NCBI GenBank assembly: GCA_947168065.1
Contig: CAMVKH010000001.1
Coordinates: forward strand, 248,001 to 312,000
DNA length: 64,000 bases
Direction of reading: 5' to 3'
DNA from: an uncultured Bacteroidales bacterium
GTDB lineage: Bacteria > Bacteroidota > Bacteroidia > Bacteroidales > UBA932
The translations under genes and the position numbers were made by a program. A model generated the notes under the pieces. The model searched no databases. It was not told the origin of the DNA and worked only from the letters and a program-made list of their open reading frames with translations. The first letter of the stretch is position 1, and each line of letters begins with the position of its first letter. Shown one piece after another: positions 53,061 to 56,439 of this stretch.

Positions 53061-53837
53061 CTACTTCCCGTAGGCGTCGGCGGCAGCTTTCATGCGGGCA
53101 GCGCGCTCTTCGGTGGCGGGATGGGAGGAGAAGGCGGTCTGGGTGCCGGTCGGGCGGTTGCCGTTCTCACCGTTGAGTTTCATCAGTTTGACCAGGGAGT
53201 TGTACATGCTGTAGGGGCTGTAGCCCTGGTCGATGGCGAACTGGAAGCCATTCTCGTCGGCTGCGAATTCCTGCTTCTGGGAATACTGGGCGTTGAGATA
53301 GGACTGGGCGATGTCGCCGAGCACGCTGGTGGAAAGCTGGCCTAGCACGCTGCCGGTCGAGCCGAGGGCCAGACGGGCCGCATAAGCCATGTAAGTCTTC
53401 TTCATCGCGTTTTTCGTGTCCTTGTGGCGGACGTGGCCGATCTCGTGGCCGATGACAGCCATCAGCTCGGCGTCGTTCATCACGTCCATCAGGCCGGAAT
53501 ATACCCGGATGGATCCGTCGCCGCTGGCAAAAGCATTAACCTCGTTGGTCTTGTAGACTTTCAGGTTGATGGGGATCCCGTCGATGCTTTTCACGTTGCC
53601 CATCAGTTTGCGGAGGCGCTGGTCATACGCACCACGGTCGACCTTGTTCACGGAATCCATGTAGGCGACCGACTGGGCGCTCAACTGCGCGATCTGTTCG
53701 TCGGAAATGGTCAGGGCCGTCATGGCGGTACCGGCGGCGGTGGCCAGCGACGCGGCGTCGAAACCGGTGCTGGACAGGATACCGCACGAAGTGAGCATCG
53801 TGAGGGCAGCGACAAAGGCAAGAAGGTGTTTTTTCAT
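53061..53837 (-). CDS. M48-family metalloprotease, lipoprotein
   Basis: 258 residues from the ATG at 53837 (MKKHLLAFVAALTMLTSC), a lipoprotein signal. The zinc motif is VIGHEIGHVRHKD, with the third ligand Glu in EFAADENGFQFA. It resembles the BepA/LoiP type of periplasmic M48 peptidases, which act in outer-membrane protein quality control. It follows the radical-SAM gene by 40 bases but has its own -7 element. Confidence 0.93.
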   Translation of the reverse strand: MKKHLLAFVAALTMLTSCGILSSTGFDAASLATAAGTAMTALTISDEQIAQLSAQSVAYMDSVNKVDRGAYDQRLRKLMGNVKSIDGIPINLKVYKTNEVNAFASGDGSIRVYSGLMDVMNDAELMAVIGHEIGHVRHKDTKNAMKKTYMAYAARLALGSTGSVLGQLSTSVLGDIAQSYLNAQYSQKQEFAADENGFQFAIDQGYSPYSMYNSLVKLMKLNGENGNRPTGTQTAFSSHPATEERAARMKAAADAYGK

Positions 53838-53877: not shown

Positions 53878-54951
53878 TTACAATGTCTTTGCGTAGTGAC
53901 AATTGATAACTTCGCTGCAGTCGCCGTGCCAGTTGTGCATTCCGTTTCCCTGGCAATCCCGCCAGACCGGGCAGCCAGCGCAGCGGCCTTTGCGGGTCCA
54001 TTCCCGGTGACGGAACGGCTCGAAGCGGTTTTGCCACACGTCCCACAGGTTGTCCCGATAGATGTTGCCTTGTGAAAAAACGTCCCGGTCGATGTTCGGG
54101 CAGCCGCAGATTCGCCCGTCGATCAGTACCGAGGCGATGGTTACGCCAGCCCGGCAGAAGAAGGGATTCTGGCGGACTTTCCGCTCATAGCGGCCCAGAT
54201 AGCCTTCACAACTGAAAGTCACGTTCATCGGGCGCGGCCCTTCCTTCACGGCACGGGCCGCCTCGCGACGCGCCTGGATGAAATCCATCAACTGTACGAA
54301 CTCCGCATCGGAAAGATGCATCTCGGGATCGTTCTTGGCCCGGCCGATGGGAATGATGGTGAAGATGCGCCACTGCTTGACGCCGAGCGACTGCAGCTTG
54401 TCGTGCAGCGCGTCAAGCTGGCCGATGCTGCGCTTATTGATGCAACTCACCACGTCGAAGTTGAGCCGGGGTTCCTTCGCTGCAATAGCGATAGCCCTCA
54501 GCGTGCGCTCATAAGCACCCGCGCGGCCACGCATCCAGTCGTGATCCTCTCCTATCCCGTCGAGGCTGATGGTCAGGGCGCCCATGCCTGCACCCATCAG
54601 TTTGCCGTGCATGGCTTGGTCGTAGAACCAGCCGTTCGATACCATGCTCCATCCTACGCCCCGCTGCCGAATGGCACGTCCCACCTCCGCAATGTCGGGC
54701 CGCAGCAGCGGCTCGCCGCCCGTAAGGACAACCGTGAACTCGGGCGGGCGTTCTTTCACCGGGATGGTATCGAACGCCCGCAGGAAGTCTTCGAGGGGCA
54801 TATCCACGTCCTGGCTCGCCGCCATACAGTCACTGCCGCAGTGGCGGCAGTGCAGGTTGCAACGCGTGGTACACTCCCAAAACAGATAGTTCAGTTCGTG
54901 GACCTTCACTTCGTTGGCCCGGAAAAGGCGGAACAGGGTATCGCGGAGCAT
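53878..54951 (-). CDS. Radical SAM/SPASM enzyme of the rSAM/lipoprotein type
   Basis: 357 residues. The [4Fe-4S] site is C31-x3-C35-x2-C38 (RCNLHCRHCGSD) and GGEPLLRPD follows as the SAM-binding GGE motif. The C-terminus is a SPASM-like domain with at least seven Cys (FFCRAG, GRICGCPNI, GRCAGCPVWRDC, GDCSEVINC). SPASM enzymes modify peptides or proteins. The fit with lipoprotein-associated radical SAM enzymes of Bacteroidales (TIGR04133-like) rests on recall of the family and on context: the gene starts at the base after the stop of a lipoprotein gene, and a second lipoprotein with the same leader lies upstream. No precise reaction is known. Confidence 0.88.
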   Translation of the reverse strand: MLRDTLFRLFRANEVKVHELNYLFWECTTRCNLHCRHCGSDCMAASQDVDMPLEDFLRAFDTIPVKERPPEFTVVLTGGEPLLRPDIAEVGRAIRQRGVGWSMVSNGWFYDQAMHGKLMGAGMGALTISLDGIGEDHDWMRGRAGAYERTLRAIAIAAKEPRLNFDVVSCINKRSIGQLDALHDKLQSLGVKQWRIFTIIPIGRAKNDPEMHLSDAEFVQLMDFIQARREAARAVKEGPRPMNVTFSCEGYLGRYERKVRQNPFFCRAGVTIASVLIDGRICGCPNIDRDVFSQGNIYRDNLWDVWQNRFEPFRHREWTRKGRCAGCPVWRDCQGNGMHNWHGDCSEVINCHYAKTL

Positions 54952-55323
54952 CTATTCGGCTTTGGAGAGTTTGATCTCGACAAGATGATGACTCAGGTCA
55001 GTCAGGACCGTATCTTTCACGAGATAATCCGTTCCGGCGGCTTCGATGCGGAATTGGGGGTTGGCCCCCTCCATAATGCCGAACCGGACGAATGCCTCGC
55101 CTTCGGCATTGGTTACGCCACAGGGAATCCAGTCGAGATTCTCAGCAGCCTGGACACGGGAACTGATGCCGACGCCTTCCAGCGGATCGCCCGTGCGGGC
55201 ATCTACCACTTTGAATGGAAGCGCATTGTCGTGAAGCCATTCCGGCGTGCCGTAGCAGGCCTGGAAAACAAAAAGGGCCGTCGTCAACGAGAGGCCCTTC
55301 AGCAGATTGTGGAGCCATTTCAT
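54952..55323 (-). CDS. Radical-SAM-associated lipoprotein, larger form
   Basis: 123 residues. The leader MKWLHNLLKGLSLTTALFVFQAC is a lipoprotein signal with Cys23, then YGTPEWLHDNALPFKV. The body looks like a carboxypeptidase-regulatory-type beta sandwich (DARTGDPLEGVGIS, VTNAEGEAFVRFG). The C-Y-G-T-P start after the lipid anchor and the beta body fit the lipoprotein partner (TIGR04134-like) of radical SAM enzymes. It ends one base before the radical-SAM start. It is a probable substrate of that enzyme; the modified residue is not known, but Cys68 (IPCGV) and the YGTP motif are candidates. Confidence 0.82.
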   Translation of the reverse strand: MKWLHNLLKGLSLTTALFVFQACYGTPEWLHDNALPFKVVDARTGDPLEGVGISSRVQAAENLDWIPCGVTNAEGEAFVRFGIMEGANPQFRIEAAGTDYLVKDTVLTDLSHHLVEIKLSKAE

Positions 55324-55343
55324 GTGATGTGTGTTTTAGCGTA

Positions 55344-55351
55344 CAAACATA
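55344..55351 (-). promoter_or_regulatory. Possible internal -7 element before the larger lipoprotein
   Basis: TATGTTTG on the minus strand, 20 bases before the ATG at 55323. It lies in the 55-base gap between the two lipoprotein genes and could give the larger lipoprotein and the enzyme a separate transcript. Confidence 0.45.
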
Positions 55352-55378
55352 AAATACACTCCGGAGCGAAATGTTGCG

Positions 55379-55585
55379 TCAGAGAGTGACATTTAATTCT
55401 GTCACTTCCGGTTCTTCCGCTTCAAGAACGGGAGTCTGGATTTCTTCGGCCTCGGTCAGGCTTGCTTCCTCGACCGGCTCTTCCCAGGCTTCCGGATAGC
55501 CCGGCGGCGTGCCGTAACAGGCCTGGAACACGAACAGGGCTGCGGTCAGCGAGAGGCCTTTCAGCAGTTTGTGGAGCCATTTCAT
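55379..55585 (-). CDS. Radical-SAM-associated small acidic lipoprotein
   Basis: 68 residues from the ATG at 55585. The leader matches the larger lipoprotein at nearly every position over 23 residues (MKWLHKLLKGLSLTAALFVFQAC) and is followed by YGTPPGYPEAW. The rest is short, low-complexity and acidic (EEPVEEASLTEAEEIQTP), without the beta body. An in-frame ATG eight codons earlier is rejected because it adds a charged segment before the signal. It could be a second modification substrate, a truncated paralogue or a carrier peptide. Confidence 0.75.
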   Translation of the reverse strand: MKWLHKLLKGLSLTAALFVFQACYGTPPGYPEAWEEPVEEASLTEAEEIQTPVLEAEEPEVTELNVTL

Positions 55586-55618
55586 AGCGCTGCGTTTTAT
55601 GGATTTCATCGCAAGTTA

Positions 55619-55668: not shown

Positions 55669-56439
55669 ATGTATTCTCCTGCAGAAGATCCGATTTACAG
55701 CCGCACGGGACTGCTCCTGGGTCCGGATGTCATGGAACGCCTCGGCCAGGTCCGCGTCATCATCTTCGGTGTGGGTGGCGTGGGCAGCTGGTGCGCCGAA
55801 GGGCTTGTCCGTAGCGGCATCACGCATCTGACTCTCGTCGACTCCGACTGCGTAAGCACAAGTAACATCAACCGTCAGCTGATGGCCACAACCCGTACCG
55901 TGGGACAGATCAAGGTCGAAGCGCTGAAAGCGCGGCTGCTGGAAATCAACCCGAACGCCGAAATCACGGCCATCCAGCGCGCCTACTCCGCGGAAACGGC
56001 TGCTTCGTTCGAATTGGAACGCTACGACTACATCCTCGACGCCATCGACTCCCTCAAAGAAAAATCCGACCTGATCCTGCGGGGCACCCGCACCCCGGCC
56101 GTGTTCTTCTCCTCGATGGGTGCTGCGCTCAAAGTCAACCCACAAGGCGTCCGGGTTGCCGAGTTCTGGAACGTGCGCGGCTGCCCGCTCGGTGCCGCTA
56201 TCCGCAAGAAATTCAAGCAGAACCACACCTATCCGGGGCACAAGTTCCGCTGCGTCTACGACGAAGAAGTCCTCCCCAACCGCGGCCAGGCCCTCGCCGC
56301 CGACGCCTCCAACAGCGAATGGGACGGCCGCAAAGCCCAGATTAACGGCACCACCGCCCACATCACCGCCCTCTTCGGCATGACCCTCGCCGGCCTGGTC
56401 ATCGAAGACCTCTACCAAAAGGCCCTTCAAAAAAATTAA
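55669..56439 (+). CDS. tcdA: tRNA threonylcarbamoyladenosine dehydratase
   Basis: 256 residues, ThiF/E1-like fold. The nucleotide-binding loop is GVGGVGSWCAEGLVRSG and the Mg/ATP residues are in LVDSDCVSTSNINRQL. The TcdA/CsdL-specific segment is NVRGCPLGAAIRKKF, containing the conserved Cys, and FRCVYDEE follows. The enzyme cyclises t6A at tRNA position 37. It is divergent from the lipoprotein cassette and lies just upstream of the tRNA-Gln/tRNA-Met cluster. Confidence 0.95.
   Translation: MYSPAEDPIYSRTGLLLGPDVMERLGQVRVIIFGVGGVGSWCAEGLVRSGITHLTLVDSDCVSTSNINRQLMATTRTVGQIKVEALKARLLEINPNAEITAIQRAYSAETAASFELERYDYILDAIDSLKEKSDLILRGTRTPAVFFSSMGAALKVNPQGVRVAEFWNVRGCPLGAAIRKKFKQNHTYPGHKFRCVYDEEVLPNRGQALAADASNSEWDGRKAQINGTTAHITALFGMTLAGLVIEDLYQKALQKN

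Follow-up and report, generated by a model that had tools for sequence, protein, structure and literature searches.

A radical SAM/SPASM enzyme paired with lipoproteins in Bacteroidales: a proposed splicease for the Tyr-Gly of X-Y-G motifs

The window, i.e. the whole stretch of 64,000 nucleotides that was analysed, originates from contig CAMVKH010000001.1 (positions 248,001 to 312,000, forward strand) of an uncultured Bacteroidales bacterium (GCA_947168065.1). The host genome comprises 2.02 Mb in 17 contigs and is 76.86% complete. The window holds a cassette of two lipoprotein genes and one enzyme gene, which was annotated together with its flanks as follows:

53061..53837, minus strand: M48-family metalloprotease, predicted lipoprotein, 40 bases past the enzyme gene (Pfam Peptidase_M48, E 5.9e-26)
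53878..54951, minus strand: TIGR04133 radical SAM/SPASM enzyme, proposed lipoprotein splicease, 357 aa (TIGR04133 and Pfam matches)
54952..55323, minus strand: lipoprotein 1, 123 aa, with putative signal peptide and FQA-C lipobox, CYGTP and a predicted beta sandwich (sequence, sub-threshold TIGR04134 match, AlphaFold2)
55243..55257, minus strand: CYGTP of lipoprotein 1, residues 23–27, the predicted lipid Cys being the X of the proposed splice motif X-Y-G (sequence and alignment A4)
55379..55585, minus strand: lipoprotein 2, 68 aa, with a near-identical leader, CYGTP and a short acidic Pro-rich tail (sequence)
55505..55519, minus strand: CYGTP of lipoprotein 2, residues 23–27 (sequence)
55669..56439, divergent: ThiF/MoeB-like gene on the other flank of the cassette

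On the minus strand, lipoprotein 2 is followed by a 55-base gap, lipoprotein 1 and the enzyme. An earlier sequence-only reading had described an enzyme gene beginning directly after a lipoprotein stop codon and a second lipoprotein gene 55 bases upstream, and this layout was confirmed: the TAG of lipoprotein 1 abuts the ATG of the enzyme, the stop codon of lipoprotein 2 ends at 55379 and lipoprotein 1 begins at 55323. For lipoprotein 2, the start matching the common leader is the ATG at 55585, with a second in-frame ATG at 55609. A Bacteroidota-type promoter pattern matched twice in the window (25406 and 41306), with no match at the cassette. The M48 gene was considered as a cassette member and rejected, being kept only near enzymes of the window's type as defined below (12 of 106 loci); the ThiF-like gene was found near 11 of 106 loci. 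Both genes flank the cassette in close relatives, and some of the loci counted are one contig under two names (at least 2 of the 12 M48 loci).

The enzyme was compared with NCBIfam and passed the curated cut-off of TIGR04133 (453.1 bits, cut-off 425, E 5.3e-136), the match spanning residues 5–355 of the protein and positions 8–348 of 350 in the model. Membership in the rSAM/lipoprotein family, which the sequence-only reading had named, is thereby borne out, and so is the statement that the pair TIGR04133/TIGR04134 is catalogued without a reaction (hypoth_equivalog). Pfam assigned Radical_SAM (E 5.7e-18) and SPASM (E 4.5e-7) domains; the CxxxCxxC motif pointed out earlier reads CNLHCRHC, and the Cys-rich C-terminus is present as well. 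An AlphaFold2 model (pLDDT 93.6, pTM 0.91, numbering without the first Met) resembles full SPASM enzymes as far as a predicted structure tells: among solved folds, anSMEcpe gave TM 0.70–0.72 by query length and SuiB 0.67–0.69, BlsE came first by E-value, and PqqE and SkfB were also among the nearest. No added domain fit for an RRE was seen in the 356 modelled residues, judged from secondary structure. A search of solved structures by sequence returned 9 matches, cytosylglucuronate decarboxylase being the best, and no splicease.

TIGR04133 was detected in 71 of 295 genomes searched from the order Bacteroidales. Of the three TIGR04133 genes in the host genome, one is of a higher-scoring type and two belong to the window type, which was set at 384–480 bits on TIGR04133, a split drawn after the scores were seen. 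Bacteroidales bacterium UBA3290 has the closest named record for the enzyme, with 99% identity over 344 residues; most of the remaining close named records are rumen or herbivore MAGs. Plasmid sequences recorded for Parabacteroides distasonis and Treponema saccharophilum also encode the family, and the P. distasonis gene pair includes a CEYGSP lipoprotein. On plasmid pTS1 of T. saccharophilum (L143, NZ_AP025289.1), the TIGR04133 enzyme is accompanied by a CYGMP lipoprotein near an Mpi-type invertase gene, and this spirochaete cassette looks like a transfer from Bacteroidales.

For the lipoproteins, the assignment to the catalogued pair did not hold by score, as it did for the enzyme: TIGR04134 gave 14.5 bits for lipoprotein 1 (E 0.027, cut-off 39.8, not reached) and no match for lipoprotein 2, for which NCBIfam and Pfam gave no match at all. 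The leader reported as common to both proteins differs at 2 of 27 residues through CYGTP, and both read FVFQA-C after a hydrophobic stretch, a putative lipobox. Lipoprotein 1 was modelled with AlphaFold2 (pLDDT 89.1) as a small transthyretin/CnaB-like beta sandwich, for which Foldseek gave CnaB2, SusC NTE and transthyretin-like domains as best hits (TM at most 0.57 among the matches listed); no enzymatic role would follow from this predicted fold. The beta domain is absent from lipoprotein 2, and short-tailed proteins with the same leader recur in relatives. Lipoproteins beside window-type enzymes share a near-constant leader up to FQA-CYG, followed by either a short acidic tail or the beta domain, and YG stands directly after the Cys in all 134 ORFs with a window-type leader (duplicates included). 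In alignment A4, made of 43 full-length window-type lipoproteins whose rows were chosen for having CYG, pairwise identity was 0.57 before the Cys and 0.27 after CYG. Ordinary signal peptides diverge faster than the proteins they carry. Because this leader is instead better conserved than the mature part, a second reader of it appears likely, and the enzyme would be the natural candidate.

The conserved adjacency expected in relatives was found: of 80 named loci, 72 have a CYG lipoprotein no more than 1.6 kb from the enzyme. Together with the match above a curated cut-off, this speaks against a chance arrangement. As to the other eight, the lipoprotein is cut by the contig end in L250, L189 and L243 start at the enzyme, and L191, L199, L211, L235 and L237 have no CYG lipoprotein within 1.6 kb. 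Co-occurrence, a check proposed in the sequence-only reading, was assessed in 61 genomes using a leader profile of 29 positions built from 12 leaders (strong match: E at most 2.3e-8). Strong matches were obtained in 26 genomes and the window-type enzyme was present in 26, with an overlap of 25; the leader thus occurs in 25 of 26 genomes with the window-type enzyme versus 1 of 35 others (Fisher p 7e-15, ignoring kinship). In the enzyme-only genome (G028) a contig end falls inside the leader (L042). In the leader-only genome (G057), the CYGTP lipoprotein stands directly before a truncated TIGR04133 enzyme of which just the C-terminal part is left (L183, G057:C80), and this was read as a cassette in decay. 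Left out of the count are two weak profile matches (E 0.006 and 0.009), of which the one in G032 is a CYGVP lipoprotein.

TIGR04134 itself was found above its cut-off in 19 of 148 genomes of the order, every one of which also has the enzyme; where an intact enzyme match is absent, none of 27 genomes had it. TIGR04134-like proteins encoded away from the enzyme were compared at 11 loci (L295 and L297 were excluded as unrelated long proteins; other such matches, G157:C146, G157:C81 and G172:C2 among them, lie outside the set). On contigs without the enzyme, such proteins have XYG in 6 of 6 enzyme-bearing genomes examined (L279, L280, L282, L283, L284, L288); those of two enzyme-less genomes (L268, L289) have no XYG. 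Against this pattern, the host genome encodes a TIGR04134 member above the cut-off with no YG and no adjacent enzyme (L005/L139, C1:219133-219531).

For the motif test, 135 distinct enzyme ORFs were collected from relatives and the order, with four duplicate loci skipped. An immediate-upstream ORF was present for 120 of them, giving 76 non-redundant sequences, which were compared with 200 shuffles; the longest upstream ORF was taken automatically, and in L085, L016, L032, L068 and others it is not the lipoprotein. Of the 76 ORFs, 68 contain YG, against a shuffled mean of 28.6 and a maximum of 38, and 58 contain YGxP, against a mean of 1.3 and a maximum of 5; YG was the most enriched of all 400 dipeptides. 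In the 65 YGxP sites, Y is preceded by C (19), E (14), M (10), K (9), V (5), A (4), L (3) or N (1), and YG is followed by residues that include T (26), V (13), S (8), P (2) and G (1); another count of the position after YG gave 2 G and 2 P among 73, and YGGP is present in L094 and L098. Pro varies too, with CYGTL, CYGTD, CYGVD, MYGVR and AYGTF observed. Since lipid Cys, T and P all vary, Y-G is the constant element. The C-Y-G-T-P motif, one of two recognition sites suggested in the sequence-only reading, was therefore rejected as an indivisible unit; the shared core is X-Y-G, usually X-Y-G-x-P.

The place of the motif varies among unrelated carrier proteins: it may adjoin the lipid Cys, be set off from it by a spacer, lie at the C-terminus or form repeats. 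Lipoproteins beside the higher-scoring enzyme type have a spacer between the lipid Cys and MYGTP, AYGVP, EYGVP or similar. Two or three copies occur in a coiled-coil lipoprotein (L023, L076), both ends of one protein carry the motif in L024 and L026, and L107 has a C-terminal series of KYGVP, KYGVP and KYGIP. A repeat protein in L106, approximately 1.2–1.4 kb from the enzyme start, has three tandem units with IYGPPPGFDDDYREIDDVEC or VYGPP, and in L085, L095, L284 and L288 AQYGAP follows an SPI-like signal. Exceptions were L015, which reads DYPIGDSSP where its kin have YG, L137 with CYAPAP, and L018, whose enzyme-adjacent ORF has no YG while another lipoprotein downstream has CMYGSP. No YG-bearing lipoprotein was found beside the enzyme in L016, L029, L083, L089, L103 and L111.

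On TIGR04103, the window enzyme scored 128.8 bits (E 2e-37), far under the cut-off of 725. This model ranks second among its NCBIfam matches, and fifth and sixth for two other TIGR04133 members; in the P. distasonis and Treponema members it is outscored by TIGR04053. Rank alone was dropped as evidence of kinship because it varies from second to sixth between members, and a tree was used for this reason. In a 40-row tree, a branch with support 100/98 separates 28 rows (17 TIGR04133 enzymes and 11 others) from 12 outside rows (MftC, NirJ, TIGR04053, TIGR04347, AhbD-like), and a tree of 31 rows gave the same split 99/97 support. The 40-row tree is unrooted, includes few outside families (PqqE, anSME and sactisynthases are absent) and has a long TIGR04133 stem; on this sampling, TIGR04133 groups with the nif11_3/GDL-type and similar XYG-associated enzymes. 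Columns kept by TIGR04133 and these relatives and not by outside rows include HCGS after the cluster motif, W194 and E256, W194 being also found in 2 of 8 outside rows.

An XYG-bearing neighbour was found for 8 of the 11 non-TIGR04133 enzymes on the TIGR04133 side of the branch. XYG neighbours read RPYGPA in Azospirillum B510, MLYGGA and KPYGVA in A. oryzae, QPYGAG in Aureibacter, VLYGVG and MPYGVA in L302, and LYGTP in L304. On a Nostoc plasmid, a TIGR04103 enzyme (853 bits, cut-off 725) and a 71-aa ORF accompany a Nif11 precursor that ends in GSIALYGLPPELF; the precursor end LYGLPPELF contains LYGLP, a motif of the YGxP form. In L306 (G185:C3), the gene downstream of a related radical SAM enzyme encodes a protein of 214 aa in which KYGYP recurs six times (KYGYPCDQ and similar), likely a multi-site substrate. 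On an Agathobacter rectalis plasmid (L144, NZ_CP143948.1), an unannotated small ORF ending MYGTGVRM lies just before a radical SAM gene, with an MFS transporter gene next, possibly a spliceotide-type peptide cluster. The rows of Tropicibacter, L303 and L307 (3 of 11) had no counted XYG neighbour. The nif11_3/GDL-like enzyme of the Tropicibacter oceani plasmid (L149, NZ_CP124618.1) is located between phosphotransferase and trypsin-like peptidase genes; the upstream phosphotransferase ORF has FYGLPP near its start and was left out of the XYG count.

From the enzyme family, the conserved pairing, the XYG motif, the better-conserved leader and the kinship with XYG-associated enzymes, all of them sequence evidence, we consider it somewhat probable that TIGR04133 enzymes are spliceases which act on lipoprotein precursors at the Tyr-Gly of X-Y-G, with the signal peptide as leader. 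The cytoplasmic enzyme would dock on the conserved lipoprotein signal peptide and abstract hydrogen at or near the Tyr of X-Y-G, tyramine would leave and X would gain a keto-amide. Sec export, lipidation and membrane anchoring would come after; a cytoplasmic step before export is suggested because the reduced cytoplasm is where radical SAM enzymes can work. We infer tyramine excision, this timing and leader recognition alike. In the window type, X being the putative lipobox Cys, the mature protein would begin with a diacylglyceryl-Cys homologue that bears a keto-amide. More tentatively, with the chances put slightly below even, XYG may be a portable tag that gives one to several keto-amides to many Bacteroidales lipoproteins and some SPI-type exports, the Sec signal peptide taking the part of a RiPP leader. 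The use of such a product is speculative; by analogy, an anchored inhibitor or covalent trap of proteases would be a fair guess, because spliceotide products have been described as protease inhibitors (PMC11117315, PMC10373908).

Against a splicease count the missed TIGR04103 cut-off, the lack of an adjoining PlpY-like gene, partners that have no YG, enzymes for which no partner was found, the YG-less TIGR04134 member of the host genome, DUF1843 paralogues with MYM or MYA, and the TIGR04053 scores above TIGR04103 in the P. distasonis and Treponema members; the unrooted tree, with its few outside families and long TIGR04133 stem, weighs on the same side. The first two points would also suit an enzyme that alters the Tyr or Gly of X-Y-G in some other way and keeps the tyramine (a mycofactocin-like Tyr decarboxylation-type change, hydroxylation or a Calpha change). 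Such a modification fits the same YG evidence, and MftC-type maturases, whose model the window enzyme matches with 98.5 bits, act on Tyr too; it is nevertheless considered unlikely, as the MftC rows lie across the 100/98 branch and the nearest enzymes on the same side have XYG neighbours resembling published splicease substrates. Radical SAM/SPASM enzymes make three-residue cyclophane rings, and a triceptide-type ring joining Tyr to the residue that follows Gly (Y-G-x) was the first idea, dropped once Gly and Pro appeared after Y-G. Most residues at that position do have a beta carbon (T, V and S at the 65 sites, in the numbers given above), but Gly has none, Y before G-x-P is never exchanged for W or H in the 76 ORFs (F takes its place in 5, counted at any position), and no cyclophane synthase family is among the best 25 of 73 NCBIfam matches, so that a ring of this kind is judged quite improbable.

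Marginally less credible again is that the lipoproteins are partners for another reaction and not substrates, CYGTP being a sorting or folding motif only. The window-type motif adjoins the signal peptide, whereby one conserved block could serve export alone, and modification of the lipoproteins is itself deduced from their sequences. However, the motif is also found at a distance from the lipid Cys, in C-terminal and repeated copies and behind SPI-like signals (AQYG), and the TIGR04134-like proteins of enzyme-less genomes have no YG.

If the splicease reading is true, this gut and rumen Bacteroidales cassette would be a protein-splicing system for membrane-anchored proteins, and noncanonical backbone splicing would extend from peptide natural products to a regular modification of lipoproteins at the surface or in the periplasm. 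It would explain signal peptides that are better conserved than their exported proteins and would provide new spliceases that may need no PlpY. For a family catalogued without a reaction, it also offers an inexpensive and well-defined test, a single mass shift at a single motif. The sequence-only reading, modification of the lipoproteins before export, is supported by these comparisons; what goes beyond it is the X-Y-G motif common to the partner proteins and the tyramine-excision reading for TIGR04133, as it had named no reaction. In the open-access literature, no paper naming TIGR04133 or TIGR04134 was found, with one mention of IPR026482 only, and passages from a few of the splicease papers listed tie none of them to lipoproteins. 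The splicease assignment of TIGR04133 may already stand in Scott et al. 2022, the title of which covers peptides and proteins.

Compared with known systems, MftC (mycofactocin) and the NirJ/AhbD-type enzymes share the fold and domain make-up and give moderate profile scores, but lie on the opposite side of the 100/98 branch and have other substrates. The GDL/DUF1843 systems (TIGR03913, rad_SAM_trio) are on the same side of the tree, with an enzyme 48% identical to the Nostoc nif11_3 enzyme, and several DUF1843 proteins have PYG or LYG near the N-terminus; unlike the window lipoproteins, these are small, cytosolic-looking proteins with no signal peptide, and YG is absent in some paralogues, which have MYM or MYA in its place. 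With TIGR04133/TIGR04134 (rSAM_w_lipo/lipo_with_rSAM), the cassette shares an enzyme that is a member by score, the order of lipoprotein then enzyme and the Bacteroidales setting. It differs in that the enzyme belongs to the lower-scoring group (453 bits, the other group at ~550–600), that the lipoproteins of this group place YG right after the lipid Cys, and that both window lipoproteins are below the TIGR04134 cut-off, one of them having no beta domain.

The window enzyme was not filed in the family of PlpX, which we take to be a TIGR04103 member, because it falls short of the TIGR04103 cut-off; an X-Y-G substrate candidate does lie nearby (CYGTP twice). Among the ORFs of at least 60 aa beside the enzyme, of which the lipoproteins, the M48 gene and the ThiF-like gene are plausible, none looks like a PlpY/RRE partner gene, judged from the ORF list. 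PlpX is described as a SPASM enzyme of IPR026482 whose neighbours are a truncated RRE protein and precursors of Nif11 or nitrile-hydratase type (PMC11002830), and PlpXY excises tyramine at XYG, with MYG and LYG as natural sites; working splice tags include LYGLPI forms, and most tag placements tried in FtsZ failed (PMC10533398). PlpXY of Pleurocapsa and the nif11_3 (TIGR04103) systems resemble the window cassette in having a radical SAM/SPASM enzyme beside X-Y-G genes and in lying on the same side of the tree, and both the Nostoc precursor motif LYGLP and the published tag LYGLPI fit the YGxP form. Whereas those systems have Nif11 or nitrile-hydratase-like leaders, a peptide product and a need for PlpY, the window cassette would have a lipoprotein signal peptide as leader and an anchored protein as substrate.
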